The notes: generated by a model from the sequence alone, not told the origin. Counted from the first letter of the stretch, positions 6,620-38,018 are shown. The stretch is DNA of 64,000 nucleotides from Nitrospirales bacterium (GCA_022825885.1 JAJDVY010000006.1:1-64000); one strand, 5' to 3'. Program-made: numbers and translations.

Positions 6620-6973
6620 TGGTGGAGGTGGCGGGATTTGAACCCGCGTCCGAAGATATTCAGCACAACGGTCCTACGTGTGTAGTCAATGTTTTAAGAT
6701 TCGCAACCGCCCACGCCCACTGACCGGCTTAGAACGTTCGCTAGCCCAGAAAAATCTCATCCGCCGTTGCTGAGCACCAACATTGGACCAGCCTGCTGAA
6801 GTGGCGTCTCATCCATGCCCGCAGACAAAGAATGGGGAGACGTCGCAGTCGTAATTACGCTGCGAGAGCCAATTCTTCGTTGGCAATTATAAGGTTCCCG
6901 AAGGTTTAACGAGACTCCGAGAGCTCGACACGCACCGTTGACCTCCTAATCCCCGTCGAAGCCAGTCACCCCC
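6620..6973 (-). ncRNA. ssrA: Transfer-messenger RNA (tmRNA)
   Basis: A one-piece tmRNA of 354 nt. The 5' end GGGGGTGACTGGCTTCGACG and the 3' end GGGTTCAAATCCCGCCACC plus TCCACCA form the tRNA-like acceptor and T arms. The tag reading frame occupies 6855-6884 and encodes ANEELALAA followed by TAA, a normal proteolysis tag with the LAA degron. tmRNA rescues stalled ribosomes together with SmpB (not in this window). ssrA is a frequent landing site for mobile DNA, relevant to the island immediately upstream. Confidence 0.98.
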
Positions 6974-7046: not shown

Positions 7047-7193
7047 ATTTTTTGTCTACCGGCAGCATGAGAAATTGCTGGATACCCGATAAATGAACGA
7101 ATCTTGTCAACGTATTATTGAACACATGCAATTCCCGATTCAGACCGGGAATTCAGTGTCTTTGTACTTGAAGAAACGATAAGGTTGGAGGAG

Positions 7194-8678
7194 TCAAGGT
7201 CGTGAGTGCGCCAGAATGGCTTCGATCATTTCTTTTGCGGCTTGTGGGGATTGCGAGACTTTCGCCAAGGCTTGGAAAACCTTTCGGTAGGTTGTGACTT
7301 CAGAAGCTCTGATCTCTCCGAGCAGTGGTCGGCCGCGCCGAGCCTTGAAATTGCCCAATTTCATCTCCAGTTCATCCAGCTTCTCAAGTTCAACTTTGTT
7401 ATGGCCGTTTTTGGTGTCGATACTTTCCCGGATGCTCCGAATACGGTTCAACGCCTGTCCAACCAATGCTTTGGCATCTTTAGCATATAAATAGCCGGAG
7501 CCTGCAAGATCATAGGTTTCTTCCATGTGACAGAGTGCGGACAACAGTTGGCGCTCTTTATGTCGTGTCGTTGATGCATGGCGGCATCGAACCACTATTT
7601 TGTGGAGGACGGCGGCAAGTTGGTTTTCAAGGTTTCGAGTATGCGGGCCAGGTTCAAAATAGTCACGTCTCCCATTTGGGACGATACGCGGGTCCACGAT
7701 ATGAATCTCACCAACGCACCAGCGGTTGAACCGCTCCTCCAGAAAGAGGCGATCAAATATGAACTCGTTGCCGACTTGGATGTTTCCTGCACGTGCGCGG
7801 ATGCCCCGAATCCTAGTGTCTTTTGGTATTGCACCGAGGTAGGATGAATGGGCGATCCAGCCGATGGCAGCGCTTCCGTTATTGTCTACTGAGGGGATGT
7901 CGATTTTTTCGAGTTCTTTGAAGCGGTCCTCACGGTCCCTCGAAAACTGAATCGTCTCACCATAAGGCCGCATTATGGGCGTATGTTCGCTGTCTAAGAC
8001 AACGCTCAACGTCAGCGGAGTCTCGTTCTTTGCGAAGAGATTTTCGATTTCTGAAGCGAATGGAAAATTTAACGGCATCGGAACAGGACAAACTTCCCCA
8101 ATGTATGTTCGGACTGATTCCCTGTTAAGTATTAAGCCTGCAGCGTGTCGCCCAACACCGCTGACCTCAACCTCGAAGAAATGGTCGGGATATCCGTTCC
8201 CCGGCAGAATCTCGACGCTGACACATTCTCTAATCGCACGTTCCGTCTGTTTGGTCTCAAGAATGCGTTTTAGGAGTTTGGGGCCATCCCAGACAATGCG
8301 GGTGACTGGCTGGCCAGCCTGGGAACGCGTCAGGAACGTAACCGACTGGGCGAAGGCGAGGCCAGACAAGCGTCCGACCCCACGAAACCCTCTGTCGGTT
8401 CCTGGCTGCTTCTGGCTGTGAGCAATCGGCAACAATGCCTTGACCGCTACTTCATGATGCAACCCCGGCCCATTGTCGCGAATCTTCACGCTTAAGGCCG
8501 GTGAATTGATGTTGATCTGGACCGTCCTGTTCGCGGTCTCCCTTGCGGCGGCAAGCGCGTCTGCAGCATTTTGGATGTATTCGCGGTAAATGGCCAAGGG
8601 ATTGTCGTACATGCCAGCGGTGACGAGGCTAAAAAGATTGTTCCCCACGAGTGCTGTCGGCGTGGCTGTGTCTGGCAT
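7194..8678 (-). CDS. GHKL (Hsp90/MutL-type) ATPase, last gene of six-gene operon
   Basis: A 494-residue protein with a complete Bergerat ATP site: N-box REYIQNAADALAAA near residue 32, DNGPGL (G1) near 67 and GFRGVGRLSG (G2) near 96. The remainder is a transducer-like middle region (GEIHIVDPRIVPNGRRDYFE) and a helical C-terminal part with long charged helices (KVELEKLDELEMKLGNFKAR). Such stand-alone GHKL proteins occur in several anti-phage systems as ATP-driven switches. ATG 8678 is chosen because CGAGG lies 8-10 nt upstream; a TTG six codons earlier is possible. It follows the radical SAM gene by 21 bp. Confidence 0.85.
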   Translation of the reverse strand: MPDTATPTALVGNNLFSLVTAGMYDNPLAIYREYIQNAADALAAARETANRTVQININSPALSVKIRDNGPGLHHEVAVKALLPIAHSQKQPGTDRGFRGVGRLSGLAFAQSVTFLTRSQAGQPVTRIVWDGPKLLKRILETKQTERAIRECVSVEILPGNGYPDHFFEVEVSGVGRHAAGLILNRESVRTYIGEVCPVPMPLNFPFASEIENLFAKNETPLTLSVVLDSEHTPIMRPYGETIQFSRDREDRFKELEKIDIPSVDNNGSAAIGWIAHSSYLGAIPKDTRIRGIRARAGNIQVGNEFIFDRLFLEERFNRWCVGEIHIVDPRIVPNGRRDYFEPGPHTRNLENQLAAVLHKIVVRCRHASTTRHKERQLLSALCHMEETYDLAGSGYLYAKDAKALVGQALNRIRSIRESIDTKNGHNKVELEKLDELEMKLGNFKARRGRPLLGEIRASEVTTYRKVFQALAKVSQSPQAAKEMIEAILAHSRP

Positions 8679-8699
8679 TTTGTTGCCTCGAAACAAGGT

Positions 8700-10337
8700 T
8701 CAGTTGGCTGTCTTCACAAGGAGCGAGTTGTTTCGTTGTAGCATGGGTTCGTGGTCGAAAAGGCCAGCATCCTCAACGACCTCATCCTCTGCGGGCATAA
8801 CTGGATCAGGGTTCAGCACCGGGAAGAGCATCAACACCTGACCGCTATCAGTCTTCAAATTGTCCTTTATGTCCAGCATATGGAAGGGCATCACTTTTCG
8901 TAGGAGTGGGTCGATGGTATGGTCGTTTGCCAACCGACGGAAATGATCTCGTCGGAGTCCTTTCGCGTCTGTTGGCCCAGAAAGAAGACGAACCAATTCC
9001 CGTTCTTGGCGCTCTGAACAGCGTTTGCGGATGGCCTCGTATTCATCACGCACAGGGCGCCCAGGGCCGTTCTCATAATATTCTCTGTGAAAAATGAACG
9101 CATGAGGTAGGCGCAACAACCGTTCAAACGCCATATAGTCTTCTCCATAAGCACGCATAAAGAAGGACGTATTCCCGCTGACGATGCCGCGAGTCGCTTG
9201 AAGCATGATCTGAAACGAGCGCAAATAATACCGGTTCCAATTTTCCCCAACATGTGAGCGGTCTTTCAAAGTGACGGGTTGATAACGCATCGGGAATGAC
9301 CAAATACGGATACCCAGCGCTTCGTTCAGGGTGATGTTGAGTCGCATCCGCACGTATAAGTCTGCCGGGGTGTCCATGAAGTTATAGAGCATGTAGTTTG
9401 ACAATGAAGTAATCCCGTTATCAGCCGCCATGCGGATCGCAATCTCGTAGACCTTGCGGACTCCGAGGTGGTCGAATGCGATGCGTAGCGGACTGATGCA
9501 GATTGTAGCCATTTCTCGCAGGAACATCGGAGATTTGGCGAGAATACGCGCATCGACACCCTGATTAAAATCAACGCGGCGTTTGACTGGCGGTCTATCG
9601 GCTCGTTCAAGTTTTGCCCCCGGCGTGAAACCAAGGTCTCGGATTTCGGCGATGACCTCTCTGTACCGCGCGGACGCCGTGATGTTGTTGTCCATCAGCA
9701 CAAGGTCTTTTTTCGTCCCGTGTGCCGTGTCTACGCCAGCTACAAGTTTAGAAAGCGGCGGCATCTCGCGTTGGGCGCCCTCCAGTTTGGGTACACCGCA
9801 GAATGCACAACTCCGCACACAACCGCGCGAGGCGTAGCCGAAATAGGCGTCATGCACGGGATAGCGGTAATTGACCTGGTCGAGAATGCTGTAATCCGGG
9901 ATCATCTCCTCTATAGGTGTGCCACTGAGGTCTTCAGAGCCGAAATCAAAATTGTCCTTTGACAAGGTGAGCGCCGAAGCCGGCGGACCATCAAGCAGAC
10001 CCTTGATGAAGCGAACGCCTACCCATCGGGGCTCTTTCACAAACTCATCATACATCAGCGAGGCGGCAATGCCCCCGACGAAGACGCGTTCCGACTGATT
10101 GCCTGCCGCCTGAATCGCAAAGTCAATCGCTGCAGACGTCCGCGCCCATTCAAAGCTGAACAACGTGGTCACGTAGACGCGGTCCCAAGCTTGGTCCAAT
10201 ATCTTTGGTGTTGTGCCCTTCACAAACCTGACATTATCGCCGCGACCACGGTGATACGCAGCCAACTTCATCAAGCCGAGTGGCGGATACTTATTGGGAT
10301 ATCCTGGCTCGATTAGTAATACGCTTTTCCCAGTCAT
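8700..10337 (-). CDS. Radical SAM protein with B12-binding-like N-terminus, in candidate defence operon
   Basis: A 545-residue protein. The N-terminus (LLIEPGYPNKYPPLGLMKLA) has the typical start of B12-binding-type radical SAM proteins, but no DxHxxG cobalamin ligand motif is visible. Cys173, Cys177 and Cys180 in GCVRSCAFCGVPKLEG form the CX3CX2C cluster site. A VLMDNNITAS segment and a TIM-barrel-like middle follow, then about 150 residues of charged C-terminus. The start overlaps the upstream ParB-like stop by ATGA, so the two are co-translated. The substrate is unknown; a nucleobase or peptide modification is conceivable. I know no named defence family with this neighbour set. Confidence 0.82.
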   Translation of the reverse strand: MTGKSVLLIEPGYPNKYPPLGLMKLAAYHRGRGDNVRFVKGTTPKILDQAWDRVYVTTLFSFEWARTSAAIDFAIQAAGNQSERVFVGGIAASLMYDEFVKEPRWVGVRFIKGLLDGPPASALTLSKDNFDFGSEDLSGTPIEEMIPDYSILDQVNYRYPVHDAYFGYASRGCVRSCAFCGVPKLEGAQREMPPLSKLVAGVDTAHGTKKDLVLMDNNITASARYREVIAEIRDLGFTPGAKLERADRPPVKRRVDFNQGVDARILAKSPMFLREMATICISPLRIAFDHLGVRKVYEIAIRMAADNGITSLSNYMLYNFMDTPADLYVRMRLNITLNEALGIRIWSFPMRYQPVTLKDRSHVGENWNRYYLRSFQIMLQATRGIVSGNTSFFMRAYGEDYMAFERLLRLPHAFIFHREYYENGPGRPVRDEYEAIRKRCSERQERELVRLLSGPTDAKGLRRDHFRRLANDHTIDPLLRKVMPFHMLDIKDNLKTDSGQVLMLFPVLNPDPVMPAEDEVVEDAGLFDHEPMLQRNNSLLVKTAN

Positions 10338-11341
10338 TTTGCATCAATGTCTTTGATCATTTTGTTTATTCTCTCAACTTCCTGCATTAACTTCCTGACA
10401 TCTTGCTTGAATGCATTAAAACGACTTTGTTCGAGTTCTAACATATCTTGCCGTGAGACTTCATTAAGAAGGTTCTTCGCCTGTTTTATTTTTTCTTCTA
10501 CTTGACTGATCTTGGCGAGTTGATACCCCTCATCCAAATCAATATCGCCGTTAGCATACTTATTCAGCACCTTGGATTTCTTTAGAATCACCGGAAGTTT
10601 TTTTCTAAGTTCCTGCGCCGTAAAGGCGCCGTCTTCATCATTTGGACCAAAACTCTTAATTTTTGCTAGAAGTAAGCCACTCAAACCCTCCTTTTTCATT
10701 GCTTCAGAAATATCGGTTGTCCGAACAATAACGTCGTAGTAGCTGAAGTGGGCTCTTTTGGTATCTTCGTTGTGCTTCATCATCTCGATAACTTTAACTC
10801 TGGTACGTATTGTCCCCACTGACTCACCAAAAAGCTCTGCGATTTTATCCACATTCCACCCTTGCTCTTTACGCACATATGCGAAATTGGCCTTTTCATA
10901 GGCTGACCACTGGGTTTTACCTTTGACGTGAATCTGATTTAAGAATGCTGCCTGTTGGTCGTCGGTCAGACTGCTGACGATGTCGCATGGAATTAGATCC
11001 CACTCACCATGTGGCTCCTTTTTATGTAACAGTCGATAGACCGCCAATCGGGAATTGCCCTCTATGACTTCCATCGTGTCTCTGCGGATCAATATCGGCT
11101 CCATGAGGCCGCCGTGTCGTTTAATCTCGGGAAGCAAATTCTTGACGCTTGGTTCCTTGACGAGTTTTTGGAATATTAGTTCCTGCTGCTCTTCCTCGAT
11201 CATGTTCTTGAAGTCAGGTTCTCCATGCGTACAGGCATATACCCTCGGGTTGTCTTTTAAGAATTTGAGTTTAATTATGTCGACGTAATCATTGCTAAGC
11301 TGAATGGTTTCACGGAGAATTTTCATGTCTTTCTCTTTCAT
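10334..11341 (-). CDS. ParB-like nuclease-fold protein (ParB1 of operon)
   Basis: A 335-residue protein with a ParB N-terminal-type fold: an IIKLKFLKDNPRVY box, then PILIRRDTMEVIEGNSRLAV, where the usual ParB GERRxRA is replaced by GNSRLA. An HTH-like segment (VDKIAELFGESVGTIRTRV) follows around residues 170-190, and a coiled-coil-prone C-terminus runs from 270 to 335 (VEEKIKQAKNLLNEV). ATG 11341 is used; ATG at codon 6 is an alternative. It lies 25 bp after the helicase gene. ParB-fold proteins in restriction-like contexts act as DNA sensors, nucleases or NTPases; the exact role is not deducible. Confidence 0.78.
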   Translation of the reverse strand: MKEKDMKILRETIQLSNDYVDIIKLKFLKDNPRVYACTHGEPDFKNMIEEEQQELIFQKLVKEPSVKNLLPEIKRHGGLMEPILIRRDTMEVIEGNSRLAVYRLLHKKEPHGEWDLIPCDIVSSLTDDQQAAFLNQIHVKGKTQWSAYEKANFAYVRKEQGWNVDKIAELFGESVGTIRTRVKVIEMMKHNEDTKRAHFSYYDVIVRTTDISEAMKKEGLSGLLLAKIKSFGPNDEDGAFTAQELRKKLPVILKKSKVLNKYANGDIDLDEGYQLAKISQVEEKIKQAKNLLNEVSRQDMLELEQSRFNAFKQDVRKLMQEVERINKMIKDIDAK

Positions 11342-11366
11342 GTTTTGTGGCCCGCGATAACAAATG

Positions 11367-12833
11367 TTATGAGTGTACGTGGGGTGAGAGAATTTGTGTC
11401 AATGCCCCAGACAGATCACACATAAACGTGGCGCTAAACTCATCGCGCGATATATCTCCCTGTGTTAACTGGGCAGCTTGATATTTGGCGTTGAGTAACA
11501 GATCTACCCATTCATCAATGGTGGCCTTAGCGATTAAATTATGCACGAAGCATTCTTCAGATTGTGAAATTCGATGGATACGGTCCTGCGCTTGAAGGTA
11601 ATCATCAAGACTGAATCCACGATCATAGAAGACTGCGTGATGCGCAACAGTTAAGGTCAAGCCTTCCTTTGCTGCCCCAGGGGTCGCCACCAATAGTCTG
11701 CAAGACTTATCCGTCTTAAATCTTCGGATCGATTCGTTTCGATCAGAAACGGACATAGAGCCATGTACCTTTTGTGGAATGAAATGAGCTAATTTGCCAC
11801 TCAACCATTCGACATTGTCGATAAAGCCAGTCCATAAAATTGTCTTATTAGACTGAAGGTCGATGTCGTCAAACAAGGCAACCAGCTTTAGATATTTCCC
11901 GGGAAGTTCGTTGTATGTTTTGTCCACAAGAGCAGGATTTGACGCGCATTGCACCAAGCGCAACAAGCGTTTCAAAATGTCCTCTGCGTCATCAATAACG
12001 AAGCCGCCGCGGTCTCGGAACTCATAAGCCATTTCGTCCCTGTAGGCAGCATAAATTGCAGATTGGCGAGGCGCGAGTTCGACAAAGTGAGTTAGAATGG
12101 TCTTATCAGGAAGCTCGATTCCCGCTGTCCGCTTCGTTTCGCGTATTGAGAAATGCTTGAGCTTGTCCATCACCTCCGCTAGTTGCAAGCCATACTCAGA
12201 CACGGAAGAAGACCTAGACGGTAAATCAAGGGCTGTCTTGAATGCGGAAAATGAAGAGCCGAGCGATTGCCCACCATCAAGAAACTTGATCTGTGACCAG
12301 ATGTCATAGGGACGATTAGCCACTGGAGTTCCGGTCATGATGATGCGACGCACGAACCTGTCGGCGATGGAATGAAAATGAATTGACAGTTTCGATTCTG
12401 GATTCTTGATCTTCTGACTTTCATCCAGGATAACCCCGACCCTGCAGGTACCAAGGAACTCACTAATCAGATCTAAGTTTGTTGATATTACCTCGTAGTT
12501 CATGATGTAGATCAGAATGGGTGAATTCAGGGCAATGCTGTTTTCTCGACGATTGTCGGACAGGATTCTAGGTGTGACATGTGAGTGAGACGCCAGTTCA
12601 TCGACCCAATTTTGCACCAATGACTTTTTCGAAACCACAAACACTGTATCGACGATATCTTCGATGAGCCACAGCAACAGCAGATCGATCGCAATTTTTG
12701 TCTTGCCCAGCCCCTGCTCATGGAAGATTGCAGCATAGGGCAGGGATTGTACCGCCCTGACAGCATCAAGCTGATAAGGGTAAGCATCATGCTTGGCACT
12801 AAGCCTGGGGGCTTTTCTTAGCTTAAATCCCAT
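11367..12833 (-). CDS. SNF2-family DEAD/DEAH-box helicase
   Basis: A 488-residue superfamily 2 ATPase, near the minimal SNF2 core length. The motifs are in order: an upstream QLDAV Q-like box, Walker A EQGLGKTKIA, motif II DESQKIKN, motif III MTGTPVANR, motif V ATPGAAKEGLTL and motif VI QAQDRIHRISQ. It lacks extra domains and so probably depends on partners. ATG 12833 lies inside the end of the upstream nuclease gene (16-bp overlap). SNF2 translocases power several phage-restriction systems (for example DISARM and Dpd), but their other hallmark genes are absent here. Confidence 0.9.
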   Translation of the reverse strand: MGFKLRKAPRLSAKHDAYPYQLDAVRAVQSLPYAAIFHEQGLGKTKIAIDLLLLWLIEDIVDTVFVVSKKSLVQNWVDELASHSHVTPRILSDNRRENSIALNSPILIYIMNYEVISTNLDLISEFLGTCRVGVILDESQKIKNPESKLSIHFHSIADRFVRRIIMTGTPVANRPYDIWSQIKFLDGGQSLGSSFSAFKTALDLPSRSSSVSEYGLQLAEVMDKLKHFSIRETKRTAGIELPDKTILTHFVELAPRQSAIYAAYRDEMAYEFRDRGGFVIDDAEDILKRLLRLVQCASNPALVDKTYNELPGKYLKLVALFDDIDLQSNKTILWTGFIDNVEWLSGKLAHFIPQKVHGSMSVSDRNESIRRFKTDKSCRLLVATPGAAKEGLTLTVAHHAVFYDRGFSLDDYLQAQDRIHRISQSEECFVHNLIAKATIDEWVDLLLNAKYQAAQLTQGDISRDEFSATFMCDLSGALTQILSPHVHS

Positions 12834-13261
12834 GTTGCACCGTTGCTTGAGTCCAGCAACCAAAAGTCACAACCGTCGAATACTGTAATAGCTGTACTCG
12901 TAACATATGTGACTTGACGCATAAAGCGCATTAAGGTCCTGGCGCTATCAGCTCTGCAACCAGTTACCGCCAGGACAAAGAAACCATTCTTTCTTCGCTC
13001 AAGATAGTTGAGAAAACATTCTATTTGTTTGTTGGTGTGTGTGTTGTTAAGGTCACCATCGGTCTTGGCTTCAGCAATAACGATAGAACGGTTGGAATCT
13101 TCGCTGGCATACACGTCAGGGCGAAATCCATCAATTAAGGGAGGCACTGGTCCTCCAGGCTTCTGTTGCACGTCAGCAATGAACGACATTGAAGGAAACC
13201 GATTCTCAAGCGCTTTCACTACCTGAATTACTAAATGACTGTGCTGGTCACTCTGAGACAT
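12818..13261 (-). CDS. PD-(D/E)XK-type nuclease-like small protein
   Basis: A 147-residue protein. Residues about 43-65 read DGFRPDVYASEDSNRSIVIA followed by EAKTDGD: RPDV gives the catalytic Asp and the I-A-E-A-K strand gives the E-X-K motif of PD-(D/E)XK nucleases. An alpha/beta continuation follows (FFVLAVTGCRADSARTL). It is short and probably acts with the downstream helicase, whose start it overlaps. ATG 13261 is preferred over the TTG two codons upstream. It overlaps the upstream ParB-like gene by 14 bp. Confidence 0.75.
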   Translation of the reverse strand: MSQSDQHSHLVIQVVKALENRFPSMSFIADVQQKPGGPVPPLIDGFRPDVYASEDSNRSIVIAEAKTDGDLNNTHTNKQIECFLNYLERRKNGFFVLAVTGCRADSARTLMRFMRQVTYVTSTAITVFDGCDFWLLDSSNGATWDLS

Positions 13262-14282
13262 CTTCAAGCAGCCTCTGTAGACGTGCCGACAAATCTTCTA
13301 GTGCCCCTATCTGCTCCGTAGCATCGTCGCGTTCCCTATCTCTTAGTGCTCGCATCTCAGAATAAGGCAAATCGTTGATACGCCGTGCAAGAGCGTCTGC
13401 TAGTTGATATAAAGATGCTGCTTCCAACGTAATCTCGCTGCCTTTTTGACCAGGAATATTTTCCGCTTGTTGGTCAAGTAGTCTGGTGGCCGCTTCTATA
13501 GAGCGCGGACCTCCAGTAAGGAATGTCTCTCTTGCTTTTTCGTCACGTAATACTTTGGGTAACTGCCGTACATCTTCTAATCTGTATATTTTCCCATCAC
13601 GAATCCATTCCCCAAAATCTTTCAGGTCCATACCGGCTTCGAATATGGCTTCCTTAATCCTAGGTTTCTGTAGTTCGACAAAACCACTGAACCTATCGAT
13701 ATGAAATGCCGTATCATCGACCACGTCACGATAATATTCGTTCATGTCATGATAAGCATCTATCTGTCGTTCGATGTTGATCTTATTGCCGCCACAAAGC
13801 GATATCATTTCACCATAATCCATGAACTTGCTGTTGCGCAGATAGTGTAGATACCTTGCCTTTTCGTAGGCGGGCCATTCTCTGGCACCAACCAAGTGAG
13901 CCGAAACGCGAATTGTCTCAATGTCGCGTTGGTTCGCATTGTCCAGTACAATTGCTTTGATCTGCGCCCAAGACCCTTTTGCGCCCTCTTTGAGAAATTG
14001 TTTATAAATAGCAAGCCGAGTGTTTCCATCAATGCAGACATATCCATTGTCTTTGATTATGACGGTGATGGGGAATATCACCCCACCACTAGCGAGGATT
14101 GCATCTTTAAGCTGTGTATAAGAGGAAGCACCCTTGTCCCCATCTGTGGCTGAACGCAAAGCAAAGTGAATGCGCTCAGCGTTCAGCTTATCCCCGTACT
14201 TCTCCAACGCTTTTTTTATTCTAGGATTATCAGTGTCAAAAGAGACATCTTTGACGTTCAGCATTGTGTGTTTTTCTTCCAT
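13248..14282 (-). CDS. ParB-like protein (ParB2), first gene of six-gene operon
   Basis: A 344-residue protein with a ParB-type N-terminal fold: NVKDVSFDTDNPRIKKALEK at the start and IDGNTRLAIYKQFLKEG near residue 95, the same GN(T/S)RLA variant as ParB1. An HTH-like region (YGEMISLCGGNKINIERQI) follows near 165 and a charged helical tail. It has little direct identity to ParB1 outside these boxes but shares its architecture, suggesting an old duplication or a heteromeric pair. ATG 14282 is fixed by an AGGAGGAG ribosome site 4 nt upstream. It heads an unbroken chain of six same-strand genes with overlaps or gaps of 25 bp or less. Confidence 0.78.
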   Translation of the reverse strand: MEEKHTMLNVKDVSFDTDNPRIKKALEKYGDKLNAERIHFALRSATDGDKGASSYTQLKDAILASGGVIFPITVIIKDNGYVCIDGNTRLAIYKQFLKEGAKGSWAQIKAIVLDNANQRDIETIRVSAHLVGAREWPAYEKARYLHYLRNSKFMDYGEMISLCGGNKINIERQIDAYHDMNEYYRDVVDDTAFHIDRFSGFVELQKPRIKEAIFEAGMDLKDFGEWIRDGKIYRLEDVRQLPKVLRDEKARETFLTGGPRSIEAATRLLDQQAENIPGQKGSEITLEAASLYQLADALARRINDLPYSEMRALRDRERDDATEQIGALEDLSARLQRLLEDVSE

Positions 14283-14525
14283 TTTCTCCTCCTGAATGAC
14301 GTACACTATCGTTCATACTGGTTGACAGCAGCGGCAGTTGGTCGTTTTCTAAAGGTGTACGGGCTGTGGGAAAGTGGATCTTCTGTTTGGTTATGGATCT
14401 TTCTCCCAATTTCAGATCCCTATAAGCTCAAGTCGGGTGTGAGGAATTTTCCGCATTATATCCGCTACGATGTTTGATAAAAAGTGGGCGATTTTGACAG
14501 CAACAGTGGTCGCGGGCTTATCCGC

Positions 14526-34607: not shown

Positions 34608-35564
34608 TCACATAACATCATACGGTCCCAGAAAACGCTCGCCGTCGAAGTGGATTAAGTGGGACGGTGCATCGGCAACCCATACTTCGGTTTCCCAAGC
34701 AATCTCACCAAGGTACCGGGACATAACGGTCCGATTCGGGAAGGCGGTCACATAGACCAGCCCGGCCTTTGCCCCCACAAACAATTGGGCCAATTCAGAG
34801 TGCCTCTTGCCGTCAACGGGTCCGTGACTGGTAACCGCTTCTACCAGAACAAGCCAATTACGATCAGCATAATAAAAAACAACATCCGGCATCTTCCCGT
34901 GTGAATACACGTTGACGCCGAGATCAGCGAGCAGAGGTGCATCAAAGTAACCCCATTTGTCACCGGTGTCTCCGGCATAGATCAGTACGCTCCCGGGTGT
35001 AAATCGAGACCCGAAATCCTTAATAATTGAATGTATCAGTTCACTGCGTTCGCCAGGACTGAGGGTTATCTTCTTGCTCTTGGCAATTTGCACGGGGATT
35101 CGGTTTTGTTGGCGCTCTTTGGCATACTTGGCGGCTAGTGTCTTGCGACGAGAGAGATAGTTCGTCAGCTTGTCGTGCCATGTTTTAGAGCCGAAGCTGC
35201 GAAGTAACTCCAGTGTTGCTGGTTCGATTTGATACACCGCTTTTGGGCTATTAACGGGTCTGTCCGGTACATCAGGGTTGTAGACGGCGATTCCGGCATC
35301 CACGAACTGATGCATAGTCTGACGGCGGAAAGTTTCTCGCGTGTTCGGGGCATATTCTTTCCGATAGTGCGCCCTTGCCCAATCCATGATTGGCGTAATA
35401 CCAATAAGGGGGTTTTCCGCTCGGGTCCATTTCTTGCGAGGCGTCAAGTTCAGCAGTGCAAGCAAGCAGAGGGCTGAACGCGTATTCTGTTGGGCACGGG
35501 GAAACCCAAGTGCAATGAGAATTTGGTTGGCTTCGGTAATGTGTTTATTGGGCACATTCGTCAT
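34608..35564 (-). CDS. BsuBI/PstI-family type II restriction endonuclease
   Basis: A 318-residue protein. An N-terminal winged-helix-like region (QILIALGFPRAQQNTRSALC, LLALLNLTPRKKWTRAENPL) precedes the catalytic part: SHGKMPDVVFYYADRNWLVL followed by VEAVTSHGPVD gives Asp227 and Glu242 of a PD-(D/E)XK-like site. This matches the BsuBI/PstI endonuclease family (prototypes cut CTGCAG); the recognition site here is inferred at best. It overlaps the cognate methyltransferase by ATGA and is AT-richer than flanking core genes. Confidence 0.9.
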   Translation of the reverse strand: MTNVPNKHITEANQILIALGFPRAQQNTRSALCLLALLNLTPRKKWTRAENPLIGITPIMDWARAHYRKEYAPNTRETFRRQTMHQFVDAGIAVYNPDVPDRPVNSPKAVYQIEPATLELLRSFGSKTWHDKLTNYLSRRKTLAAKYAKERQQNRIPVQIAKSKKITLSPGERSELIHSIIKDFGSRFTPGSVLIYAGDTGDKWGYFDAPLLADLGVNVYSHGKMPDVVFYYADRNWLVLVEAVTSHGPVDGKRHSELAQLFVGAKAGLVYVTAFPNRTVMSRYLGEIAWETEVWVADAPSHLIHFDGERFLGPYDVM

Positions 35565-37120
35565 ACGCCCGGACTCTCCAGTTGCTCGGCAGTCAAGGTC
35601 CGAATCGGTCCATGGCGTTGCATAGCCCTCTTGCCTAACGCAATGAGGCTTTCCTTGTTCGGGTACTTGATGAGCCGGAGGTCGGTCGCATTGACTTGAG
35701 TATGGCCGTTGAAACGCCGGAAGTTTTCATCAACCGCCGTCGTGTTGAGGAATGCAGCCAACCCATGGGCTAACGGTTCCGGCAACCCATGCTTCCCTTC
35801 ATGAAACACGTTCAGATGGTTTTCAAAACCCAACGCGTCGGCATTGGGAAAACTGTCAGGCGTTACGACACTCGCTACGATACGACGTCTTTCTTCCTTG
35901 GACGAAAAGCGGCGTACCACGCAATAGAACCCATTGGGGTAAAGCCATTTTTCCGTCTGAGCATTGCGGCATATCGCATTAGGTTTCTTCAGTTCCGGAT
36001 TCGGCCAATCTGTCGTTTGACCTTTAAAGTGGCTGGGATACAGCAAAGGGACCGTGTCCGCGTCCGGCATGTCACGCAGGTGTTCTCTTAATCGGAAATC
36101 GACCACGGGACCGGTCGACACCTGGATGCCTATATCGTCTAAAGTGAATCGGATCACCCTTGACCGTTCAAGGATGCTAAATTCCGGTGAGGTCGGTACG
36201 TGGATGAATCGCTCGGGGTCTCCGGGAAACACGATGCGATCAAAGGCGTACCTGTTCGTCTCCATATCGGCAAAGCTGCCATCGGTCGAGGTTGTCACCG
36301 TCACGTCGCCTTGGCGTGCCCCACGTTCCAAGGCGACGATGACGTTCTCTTGCAACACTTCATCATCCTTAAAGGCCTTATTTCTCGAAGCGAAGAGGTG
36401 TATTTGCAGGATCGCCGCACGTTCAAGAACGTATTCACGGAAGGGACGGTAATACGGTCCATTACAGAAACTGCGTGGTACGATTGCAGTAAGTTGGCCG
36501 TGATTTTCAAGCAAAGATAAAGATAAGGCCACAAAGGCTGAATACAGATTAACGGTTTCAATCCCGACTCGTCGCAATGCCGAACGGTAAAGGGAGTTGC
36601 TACGAATTTTCTTGTAGGGAGGATTAAGGATGGCGTGGGTGTATCTCGGAAGGGCCTCGGCAAATAGATGCCCGGAGAGCGAATCAACCGCAGTATGTAC
36701 GAAGTCGTCACTGCGGATGTTTGACACGACGTTTCGATACCGTCCGTAGTCCTCCAGCGATTGGATTAAATGGGGGTGCAGAGATTCGTCGATCTCGAAG
36801 GCATCGACTTCAACATGCTGAAAATCAAAGCCACCAGCAGTCCACCTTTCCAAAAAGGCGACGGAAAGAGAACCGATTCCGGCCCCGGCATCGAGCAGAC
36901 GACAGTTATCCCCGGCTCTTTGAGGAAACAGCCCTGCCATAAATCGTGCAATTTTAGTCTGTGTGAAGAATTGGCCATATTGTGACTTCTTCTTTGGATC
37001 AATCCTCTTTCCTATGGTTAGCCTTGAAGGCTCACCTTCTAAGAACAAGGAAGTGCCTCTTATTTTTTTTCCTAATGTAGCTATAACGTGATCACCGTAG
37101 ATAGGCTTGTTAATCTTCAT
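35561..37120 (-). CDS. N6-adenine DNA methyltransferase (type II, BsuBI/PstI-like)
   Basis: A 519-residue class I methyltransferase. SQYGQFFTQTKIARFMAGLF (motif X), LLDAGAGIGSLSVAFLE (motif I near 75-90), VDAFEIDESLHPHL (motif II) and NPPY at 166-169 (motif IV) mark a gamma-class adenine methylase. The target recognition region follows (residues about 250-480), and the C-terminus contains VNATDLRLIKYPNKESLIAL. It protects DNA from the partner endonuclease. It starts inside the stop of the Mrr-like gene, so all three genes form one unit. A second copy of its C-terminal motif survives at 38306-38345. Confidence 0.92.
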   Translation of the reverse strand: MKINKPIYGDHVIATLGKKIRGTSLFLEGEPSRLTIGKRIDPKKKSQYGQFFTQTKIARFMAGLFPQRAGDNCRLLDAGAGIGSLSVAFLERWTAGGFDFQHVEVDAFEIDESLHPHLIQSLEDYGRYRNVVSNIRSDDFVHTAVDSLSGHLFAEALPRYTHAILNPPYKKIRSNSLYRSALRRVGIETVNLYSAFVALSLSLLENHGQLTAIVPRSFCNGPYYRPFREYVLERAAILQIHLFASRNKAFKDDEVLQENVIVALERGARQGDVTVTTSTDGSFADMETNRYAFDRIVFPGDPERFIHVPTSPEFSILERSRVIRFTLDDIGIQVSTGPVVDFRLREHLRDMPDADTVPLLYPSHFKGQTTDWPNPELKKPNAICRNAQTEKWLYPNGFYCVVRRFSSKEERRRIVASVVTPDSFPNADALGFENHLNVFHEGKHGLPEPLAHGLAAFLNTTAVDENFRRFNGHTQVNATDLRLIKYPNKESLIALGKRAMQRHGPIRTLTAEQLESPGV

Positions 37121-38018
37121 TCAAAGTAATCGGAATCGATTCTTTTCAATTCGTAAGTATTTGCGGTTGTCACCCCGATTCCATAGTCGATCATAAGATA
37201 AGCTAGTTGGGTGCCCTCGATCAGAATGATCTTTGAGGCAATCTTCTTTGCGTACTCTATTGCCTCATGAGAGAACGCAGATGTCGTGATGAAGACTCCC
37301 TTGTGTGCTTGTTGTCCCTGCAAAGCACCTGCAAACTTCTGGACCTCTGGCCTGCTGATCACCTGTTCCCATCGCTTTGCCTGAGCATAGATAATGTCTA
37401 GACCCAGACGGTCCTCTTTGATGATTCCGTCGATGCCCTCATCCCCCGAGCGCCCAATAGCCTGACAGCTTCTTGGCGTGAACCCCCGTATCCCATACGG
37501 ACGAGTAAGTCCACAACAAGCTGTTCAAAGAACTCCGGAGAACAATTTCTGACCGTCCTCAGAATGTCATCGGCAAGATTCTCACGAATCGTCTGATAGG
37601 CTGCCTCTAGGCTTTCCTCTGGAGTATTCTCAGAAAACCCACTGTCTGATTCTGTGAAATCGTTTCTCTCATGGCGAAGTTTCCTGAAACTCATGAACTC
37701 TTCAAACTGCTCAAGAAACTTGACATTGATCACAGGTGGCTTTTCAGCAAGAACTTGCCGCCCACGTTCGGTGATGCAAAAGAAGCCCCTTTTCGGAGAT
37801 TCCAGGAGATCGGCTTTTGTCATGTACGTCCTCGCCCAACTGACTCGATTTTGGAATCTCGGCTGCTTGCCACTCGGCACGAGTTCCCTCTTCTCATCGT
37901 CAGTCAGCGTGAATTGTTGGGCGAGGAACTCAATAGCTTCATGAACATGGTGCGTTTGACCGTCGCTGGCCAATTCCAGCAACGGCAGCATAATGGATTG
38001 ATAGTCAGGAATTGCCAT
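37117..38018 (-). pseudogene. Mrr-like restriction endonuclease, broken by a frameshift
   Basis: Two frames together encode one Mrr-type protein. The first (38018 to 37398, 206 codons) has the N-terminal winged helix (LPLLELASDGQTHHVHEAIE) and VVDLLVRMGYGGSRQEA. It then shifts near 37464-37469. The true continuation QAIGRSGDEGIDGIIKEDRL, then LGLDIIYAQAKRWE, KFAGALQGQQAHKGVFITTS and IEYAKKI lies in the other frame to 37117. The catalytic Asp and QAK are thus on the downstream side of a likely one-base deletion (GCTGTCAGG where GCTGGTCAGG would keep frame). It overlaps the methyltransferase start. Sequencing error is possible. Confidence 0.85.

Follow-up and report, generated by a model that had tools for sequence, protein, structure and literature searches.

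The window analysed here is a stretch of 64,000 nucleotides from a Nitrospirales bacterium, contained in an assembly of 2.38 Mb that is 95.5% complete. ORF calling identified six intact reading frames, A to F, all on the minus strand between positions 7194 and 14282 (Table 1). Their order and interval agree with a preliminary description made from the sequence alone, which had read the locus as a six-gene operon and as a candidate undescribed defence or DNA-modification system. Neighbouring genes are separated by gaps or overlaps of no more than 25 bp, with D and E overlapping by 4 bp, and the GC content is 0.45–0.48 in A–D and ~0.49–0.53 in E–F compared with ~0.57–0.60 in most of the window; the close packing and the AT-richness noted in that description were thus both reproduced. 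Its end coordinate also proved to be the true start of gene A, with the strong ribosome site that it had placed at the head of the operon, and the adjacent ssrA gene lies 220 bp beyond the end of F. A scan for sigma-70 promoters gave no match upstream of gene A. The pN/pS of the six genes relative to the closest sister genome ranges from 0.15 to 0.35 (0.23 for gene A) and, judging from these sequence comparisons, all of them are under purifying selection. Within the genus, D and E diverge with a dS of about 2.3 and A, B and C with a dS of 0.64–1.0, a difference that suggests recombination inside the operon.

Table 1. Features of the operon and its ssrA-proximal edge in the window (start codons of A–F are those matching homologues)
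Feature	Position	Strand	Basis
Gene A, ParB-like protein 1, operon head, 344 aa	13248..14282	-	ORF, weak PHROG ParB and PADLOC candidate matches, GNTRLA motif
Ribosome-binding site of gene A, perfect AGGAGG	14288..14293	-	read from sequence; precedes ATG 14282
Gene B, small PD-(D/E)XK nuclease, 147 aa	12818..13261	-	invariant catalytic residues, 32 homologues
Gene C, SNF2-type SF2 translocase, ~488 aa	11367..12833	-	Pfam, PHROG_62
Gene D, ParB-like protein 2, 335 aa	10334..11341	-	PHROG, EGN.RL motif
Gene E, radical SAM enzyme with N-terminal cobalamin-binding-type domain, 545 aa	8700..10337	-	motif and predicted fold
Gene F, HSP90-like GHKL ATPase, 494 aa	7194..8678	-	motifs and predicted fold
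ssrA (tmRNA), hotspot edge, outside the system	6620..6973	-	ARAGORN, Rfam RF00023

Elsewhere in the window, within a second AT-rich patch, positions 34608–37120 (minus strand) encode a restriction endonuclease of the BsuBI/PstI type and, after it, a methyltransferase of the Eco57I type. The adjoining ORF at 37398–38018 has an Mrr N-terminal domain only and is probably a truncated restriction gene.

The fold labels proposed for the six products (ParB, PD-(D/E)XK, SNF2, ParB, radical SAM and GHKL) were borne out by profiles, motifs and predicted folds. Gene C matches Pfam SNF2-rel_dom (7.8e-28) and Helicase_C (2.2e-14) as well as PHROG_62 (1.3e-90), and as a short SNF2 motor it resembles the ZorD, DpdE and DrmD models of PADLOC only generically. 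The product of gene B received no assignment in a Pfam search; its residues H9, D32, P50-D51, E66-A-K68, D72 and Q81 are invariant in 32 homologues and satisfy the PD...(D/E)xK catalytic motif of PD-(D/E)XK nucleases. We class A and D as ParB-like from weak PHROG matches and invariant GN-R motifs, that is, from sequence evidence. Gene A has a weak PHROG ParB match, weak PADLOC candidate matches, a GNTRLA motif conserved in 35 homologues with the pattern GN[TS]RLA, and a distant PDB match to Noc/ParB/SbnI, and gene D has a PHROG ParB-like match (5.7e-9) and an EGN.RL motif that is invariant in 39 homologues.

Gene E carries a CxxxCxxC motif whose cysteines (C173, C177 and C180) are invariant in 43 homologues; beyond this motif no cysteine is conserved in all rows of the alignment, C280 being largely conserved. 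The protein is ~55% identical across phyla. Its closest fold neighbours, as judged by VIA from a predicted structure (AF2 pLDDT 83.8), are TsrM (Z 16.9), AprD4 (16.6), OxsB (16.5), MgmA (15.8) and MiaB (15.3), where rows differing by <1 count as tied; RimO is a fold neighbour too. With an N-terminal cobalamin-type Rossmann domain, a radical SAM (rSAM) barrel and the CxxxCxxC motif, the predicted protein has the features that define class-B rSAM enzymes and we assign it to this class on the strength of the model, the binding of cobalamin being inferred from the fold alone. E has the same two-domain fold and the same cluster motif as TsrM, MgmA, OxsB and MiaB, but only ~15% identity to them. MgmA is a protein glutamine methylase, RimO acts on ribosomal protein S12 and MiaB modifies tRNA; we know of no enzyme of the TsrM, MgmA, OxsB or MiaB type that acts on DNA. 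Two other assignments of E were rejected. A methylthiotransferase is not supported since, unlike MiaB and RimO with their N-terminal auxiliary-cluster cysteines, E has no conserved cysteines in its N-terminal domain, only the three of the rSAM motif and, largely, C280. Neither is a viperin-like chain-terminator enzyme (prokaryotic viperin), since E has no PADLOC match and its fold is of the class-B two-domain type.

In gene F, residues E32, N36, D67-G69 (DxG) and G99/G101 (GxG) are invariant in 39 homologues, and the predicted structure (AF2 pLDDT 87) matches the N and middle domains of HSP90/TRAP1 (Foldseek E 3.5e-16), so that both the GHKL motifs and these two HSP90 domains are present. The C-terminal part is helical in the prediction; the Foldseek matches have low TM-scores and leave a C-terminal HSP90 dimerisation domain unresolved. 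On the basis of its motifs and modelled fold, F is an HSP90-like GHKL ATPase, and an obligate partner of E.

A scan for E relatives found 241 genome stretches, 80 of which were fetched and their ORFs clustered. F adjoins E in 59 of the 60 full-length loci with complete flanks, frequently with a 4-bp overlap; when all 62 complete-flank loci are counted the figure is again 59, short phage-type rSAMs accounting for two of the three exceptions. The system occurs in at least 11 phyla, which do not separate on the E tree: Nitrospirota, Binatota, Latescibacterota, Chloroflexota, Actinomycetota and Acidobacteriota are intermixed, and Gemmatimonadota, Pseudomonadota, Verrucomicrobiota, Poribacteria and Dadabacteria interleave with them. 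Many of the related loci seem to belong to MAGs of symbionts, sponge-associated or other. Among cultured carriers, plasmid pNL1 of Novosphingobium aromaticivorans DSM 12444 holds the core, whose rSAM gene is SARO_RS17525, a gene termed X (below), PIN and long DndB-like genes, and pR132505 of Rhizobium leguminosarum WSM1325 holds ABCD and PIN in addition to the core and X. With blocks that are found again in dozens of genomes, the six-gene observation is far beyond chance.

Some of these loci carry features of separate interest. Two MAGs labelled Gammaproteobacteria and Nitrospira have identical E genes (L010 and L011), which reflects either mis-binning or very recent transfer. In two Rhodobacteraceae MAGs (L012:7114-10835 and L019) an arginase-family gene and mutS follow the operon, probably as ordinary flanks. 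In Acidobacteriota, E–F is repeatedly accompanied by a DndH-like HerA ATPase together with a GHKL protein and an orphan of 280 aa (L053:13171-17456 and L039:4304-8234); a DUF5131-like gene was seen nearby by eye, and this set is possibly a further, separate defence system.

The position of A-B-C-D relative to E–F varies, the block being upstream, downstream or inverted, and other modules are found around the core instead of ABCD or besides it, namely PIN_8 with GHKL, NurA and HerA with GHKL, and DndH-like HerA with GHKL. A gene for a long DndB-like protein also occurs near E–F in relatives. Pairwise distances between proteins correlate strongly within modules (E-F 0.91, A-C 0.92, B-C 0.93, A-D 0.89, PIN with its GHKL 0.96) and less so between them (E-C 0.44, E-A 0.56, E-D 0.66, E-PIN 0.39). 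On the E tree the presence of ABCD requires 17 changes, at least 10 of them on supported branches, a count that is slightly inflated because short fetched loci were scored as having none. The core E–F and the nuclease sets are separate evolutionary modules, the latter swapped around the former. The conserved co-occurrence proposed earlier as a check was thus met across phyla, and the six genes do recur; they are not a fixed unit, rather an E–F core with one of several exchangeable nuclease modules. This organisation also bears on what E might modify. Its fold neighbours MgmA, RimO and MiaB, and the HSP90 N and middle domains of F, would fit a locus that is still defensive and in which the substrate of E is tRNA/rRNA or a protein (ParB, SNF2 or one of the host), with F as the chaperone of E. 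We regard this as quite unlikely, as the sequence and adjacency of E–F are kept while the partner modules change, so that no ABCD protein can be an obligatory substrate of E.

The operon sits in a variable hotspot next to ssrA, a gene that related genomes retain with other cargo alongside. In a closed relative the operon is absent between ssrA and the downstream gene for an SMR-type transporter. A second genome (G007) joins the equivalents of 7107–7481 (end of F) and 14101–14494 (start of A) with 8 bp of overlap at the junction, the scar of an internal deletion, and a third, likewise scarred by deletion, retains only F and a C-terminal portion of E. Another relative has other cargo, including an HNH protein. 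In the sister genome G010, which belongs to the same genus, the hotspot holds SspB, SspC and SspD (PADLOC 9e-107, 0 and 1.5e-112) together with a pair of ParB-like genes and genes for a PD-DExK protein and a GHKL protein of 800 aa (L133:2344-12245), the rSAM system of G010 being located elsewhere. A similar exchange was observed in a rhizobial plasmid context formed by a RHE_PE00001 gene, VapBC and an integrase: it holds the rSAM system in R. leguminosarum pR132505, again the rSAM system in Agrobacterium (VapBC not in view), and SspABCD with GHKL proteins in Ensifer pC. As a separate observation, the 800-aa GHKL protein is also found beside genes of the SspABCD type on plasmids of Devosia and Ensifer and may be an undescribed Ssp restriction partner.

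At a threshold of 1e-15, 85 flanking ORFs matched 86 PADLOC models, and 85 control ORFs, drawn from arbitrary places in carrier and related genomes, matched 2; inspection of 25 listed models indicated that the flank matches span at least about ten distinct ORFs. Toxins in the flanks include HipA and VapC. The system is carried on conjugative plasmids, and its horizontal spread has been shown. Exchange with SspBCD, defence-rich flanks and conjugative-plasmid carriage support the earlier proposal of a defence candidate, and we consider a defence role very probable; antiviral action is inferred, without phage restriction data. The occurrence on plasmids and on some predicted viral contigs, and the many phage relatives of the SNF2 protein, could also be accounted for by a mobile-element maintenance or replication module that serves plasmid or prophage biology and not defence. 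The window copy is, however, chromosomal and sits beside ssrA, where the sister genome has SspBCD, other genomes show decay by deletion, and the flanks are rich in defence genes, all of which makes this explanation very improbable.

We also considered and rejected a phage-encoded form of the entire set, as annotated phages hold only short or divergent E relatives. ABCD as a viral-contig set was found at one locus only, on a contig shared with an E–F locus. In Marinitoga camini virus 1 (L137:4998-8824) a short divergent E relative lies beside HerA-NurA, an echo of the bacterial NurA-HerA module.

The selection bias of a search seeded with E was removed by seeding it with A. Among plasmid records E was near A in all seven A carriers, and A was missing from 5 of the 12 good E records. 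In 395 Rhizobiaceae genomes A was present in three and E in four; all three A genes share a contig with E (one of these carriers is the seed genome). In 270 genomes of the class to which the window belongs, intact A was found only where E occurs, the A match without E in G007 being a 64-residue remnant. In 385 genomes of the class of another genome (G271) the sole positive was the seed itself, so that this sample carries no information on the dependence. ABCD without E–F was thus never found in the plasmid records or the Rhizobiaceae genomes, and E–F without ABCD does occur. This dependence of ABCD on E–F is the asymmetry expected of restriction that needs modification.

Many relatives contain a further small gene, X, encoding a DGQHR protein related to DndB (Pfam 1.8e-10) and DpdB (PADLOC, 63 bits). 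X overlaps E by 8 bp, is present in about 35 related loci, and was found in 7 genomes by a single-protein query. The initial reading is here refined: such DndB/DpdB-like genes are common in relatives and missing in the window. A profile search without a positive control found no X/DpdB-like gene in the window operon or its genome, and X is absent from the clade of this variant. DpdB has been described as the ParB-like ATPase of Dpd that supports base insertion (PMC12839542), so a DpdB-like protein whose gene overlaps that of the rSAM enzyme points to DNA as the substrate.

These results lead us to propose, with a probability of roughly 0.5, that the locus encodes a mobile, modification-linked system against DNA invaders, in which E–F would mark self DNA and swappable nucleases would attack DNA without the mark. 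E together with F would chemically mark host DNA, assisted by the DndB/DpdB-like ATPase X in many relatives; X is missing from the window, where this role could fall to a ParB-like protein. The ParB-fold pair and the SNF2 motor would load on DNA and move along it, and the small nuclease B would cut where the mark is absent. In other lineages PIN_8 with GHKL, NurA-HerA with GHKL or DndH-like HerA with GHKL would act as the restriction module. A constant core, changing nuclease modules and a nuclease module never met without the core are expected where one modification core serves interchangeable restriction modules, and E shares its fold with cobalamin-type rSAM enzymes and the RNA-modifying MiaB. 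On the marking of DNA by E itself we are evenly divided; both DNA as the substrate and self-protection by the mark are inferred, and no modified base has been shown. Folds related to the predicted one of E also modify proteins and small molecules, X, the strongest link to DNA modification, appears from homology searches to be missing from the window variant and its clade, and a few E–F loci have no recognised nuclease module nearby, all of which counts against marking. The more specific version, that the cobalamin-type rSAM enzyme and the HSP90-like ATPase install a chemically new DNA mark (e.g., a carbon-centred methyl) read by the nuclease modules as self or non-self, remains tentative and falls short of even odds.

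The main rival is an abortive-type defence without DNA marking, where E–F senses infection, with an HSP90-like ATPase switch and rSAM redox or nucleotide chemistry as the sensor, and releases or activates the attached nuclease module. Effectors that need their core are likewise predicted by such a model, a core with swappable effectors is the layout of signalling systems too, several modules bring their own GHKL ATPase, and the flanks contain HipA and VapC. We nevertheless hold it to be rather unlikely. The recurrent partners, ParB-fold and DndB/DpdB-like proteins, are typical of DNA-modification systems, the six window proteins showed no recognisable signalling domain, be it of the cyclic-nucleotide, TIR, STAND or another type, and the conservation of the rSAM protein across phyla suggests a fixed chemical product. 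If the DNA-marking reading is true, a widespread multi-gene defence family would have radical SAM chemistry at its core, in place of sulfur, deazaguanine or methyltransferase chemistry, and HSP90-like ATPases would gain a role in DNA defence. With cultured carriers such as N. aromaticivorans and R. leguminosarum, rSAM marking of bacterial DNA is testable.

Finally, we compared the operon with known systems. Searches of PADLOC, Pfam, NCBIfam and PHROGs assigned none of the six genes to a named system, as had been anticipated from the sequence. Neither E nor F is covered as a system by any 2023 PADLOC model, and we found no literature that describes or combines these components as one (weak evidence, limited to open-licence sources). 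The system is apparently undescribed. DISARM and Zorya also have an SNF2-type helicase, but the likeness to DrmD and ZorD is limited to the generic SNF2 core and the operon lacks DrmA/DrmB, the ZorA/ZorB motor pair and a DNA methyltransferase. Like Dpd, the system is multi-gene, with an SNF2 protein, nucleases and, in many relatives, a DpdB-like ParB-superfamily protein beside the chemistry enzyme. It differs in that no TGT-like DpdA was matched in the six proteins with PADLOC, Pfam or NCBIfam, the chemistry enzyme being a predicted class-B rSAM protein, in the lack of a DpdB-like gene in the window, and in its obligatory HSP90-like ATPase. A parallel in organisation is offered by Dnd (DndABCDE-FGH) and Ssp (SspABCD-SspE/FGH), with their constant modification core and exchangeable restriction modules. 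Such modules have been described for Dnd (PMC10853773), and the SspABCD core pairs with SspE or SspFGH (PMC8092258). Relatives of the operon share with them a DndB-like partner and a DndH-like HerA, and in a sister genome SspBCD is found in this very ssrA hotspot. In contrast, Pfam and PADLOC matched no PAPS-reductase-like DndC/SspD, DndD/DndE or SspB/SspC in the six proteins, and no cysteine desulfurase was recognised in the operon. The layout is of a known kind; the enzyme for the chemistry, its HSP90-like partner and the combinations of nucleases are not.
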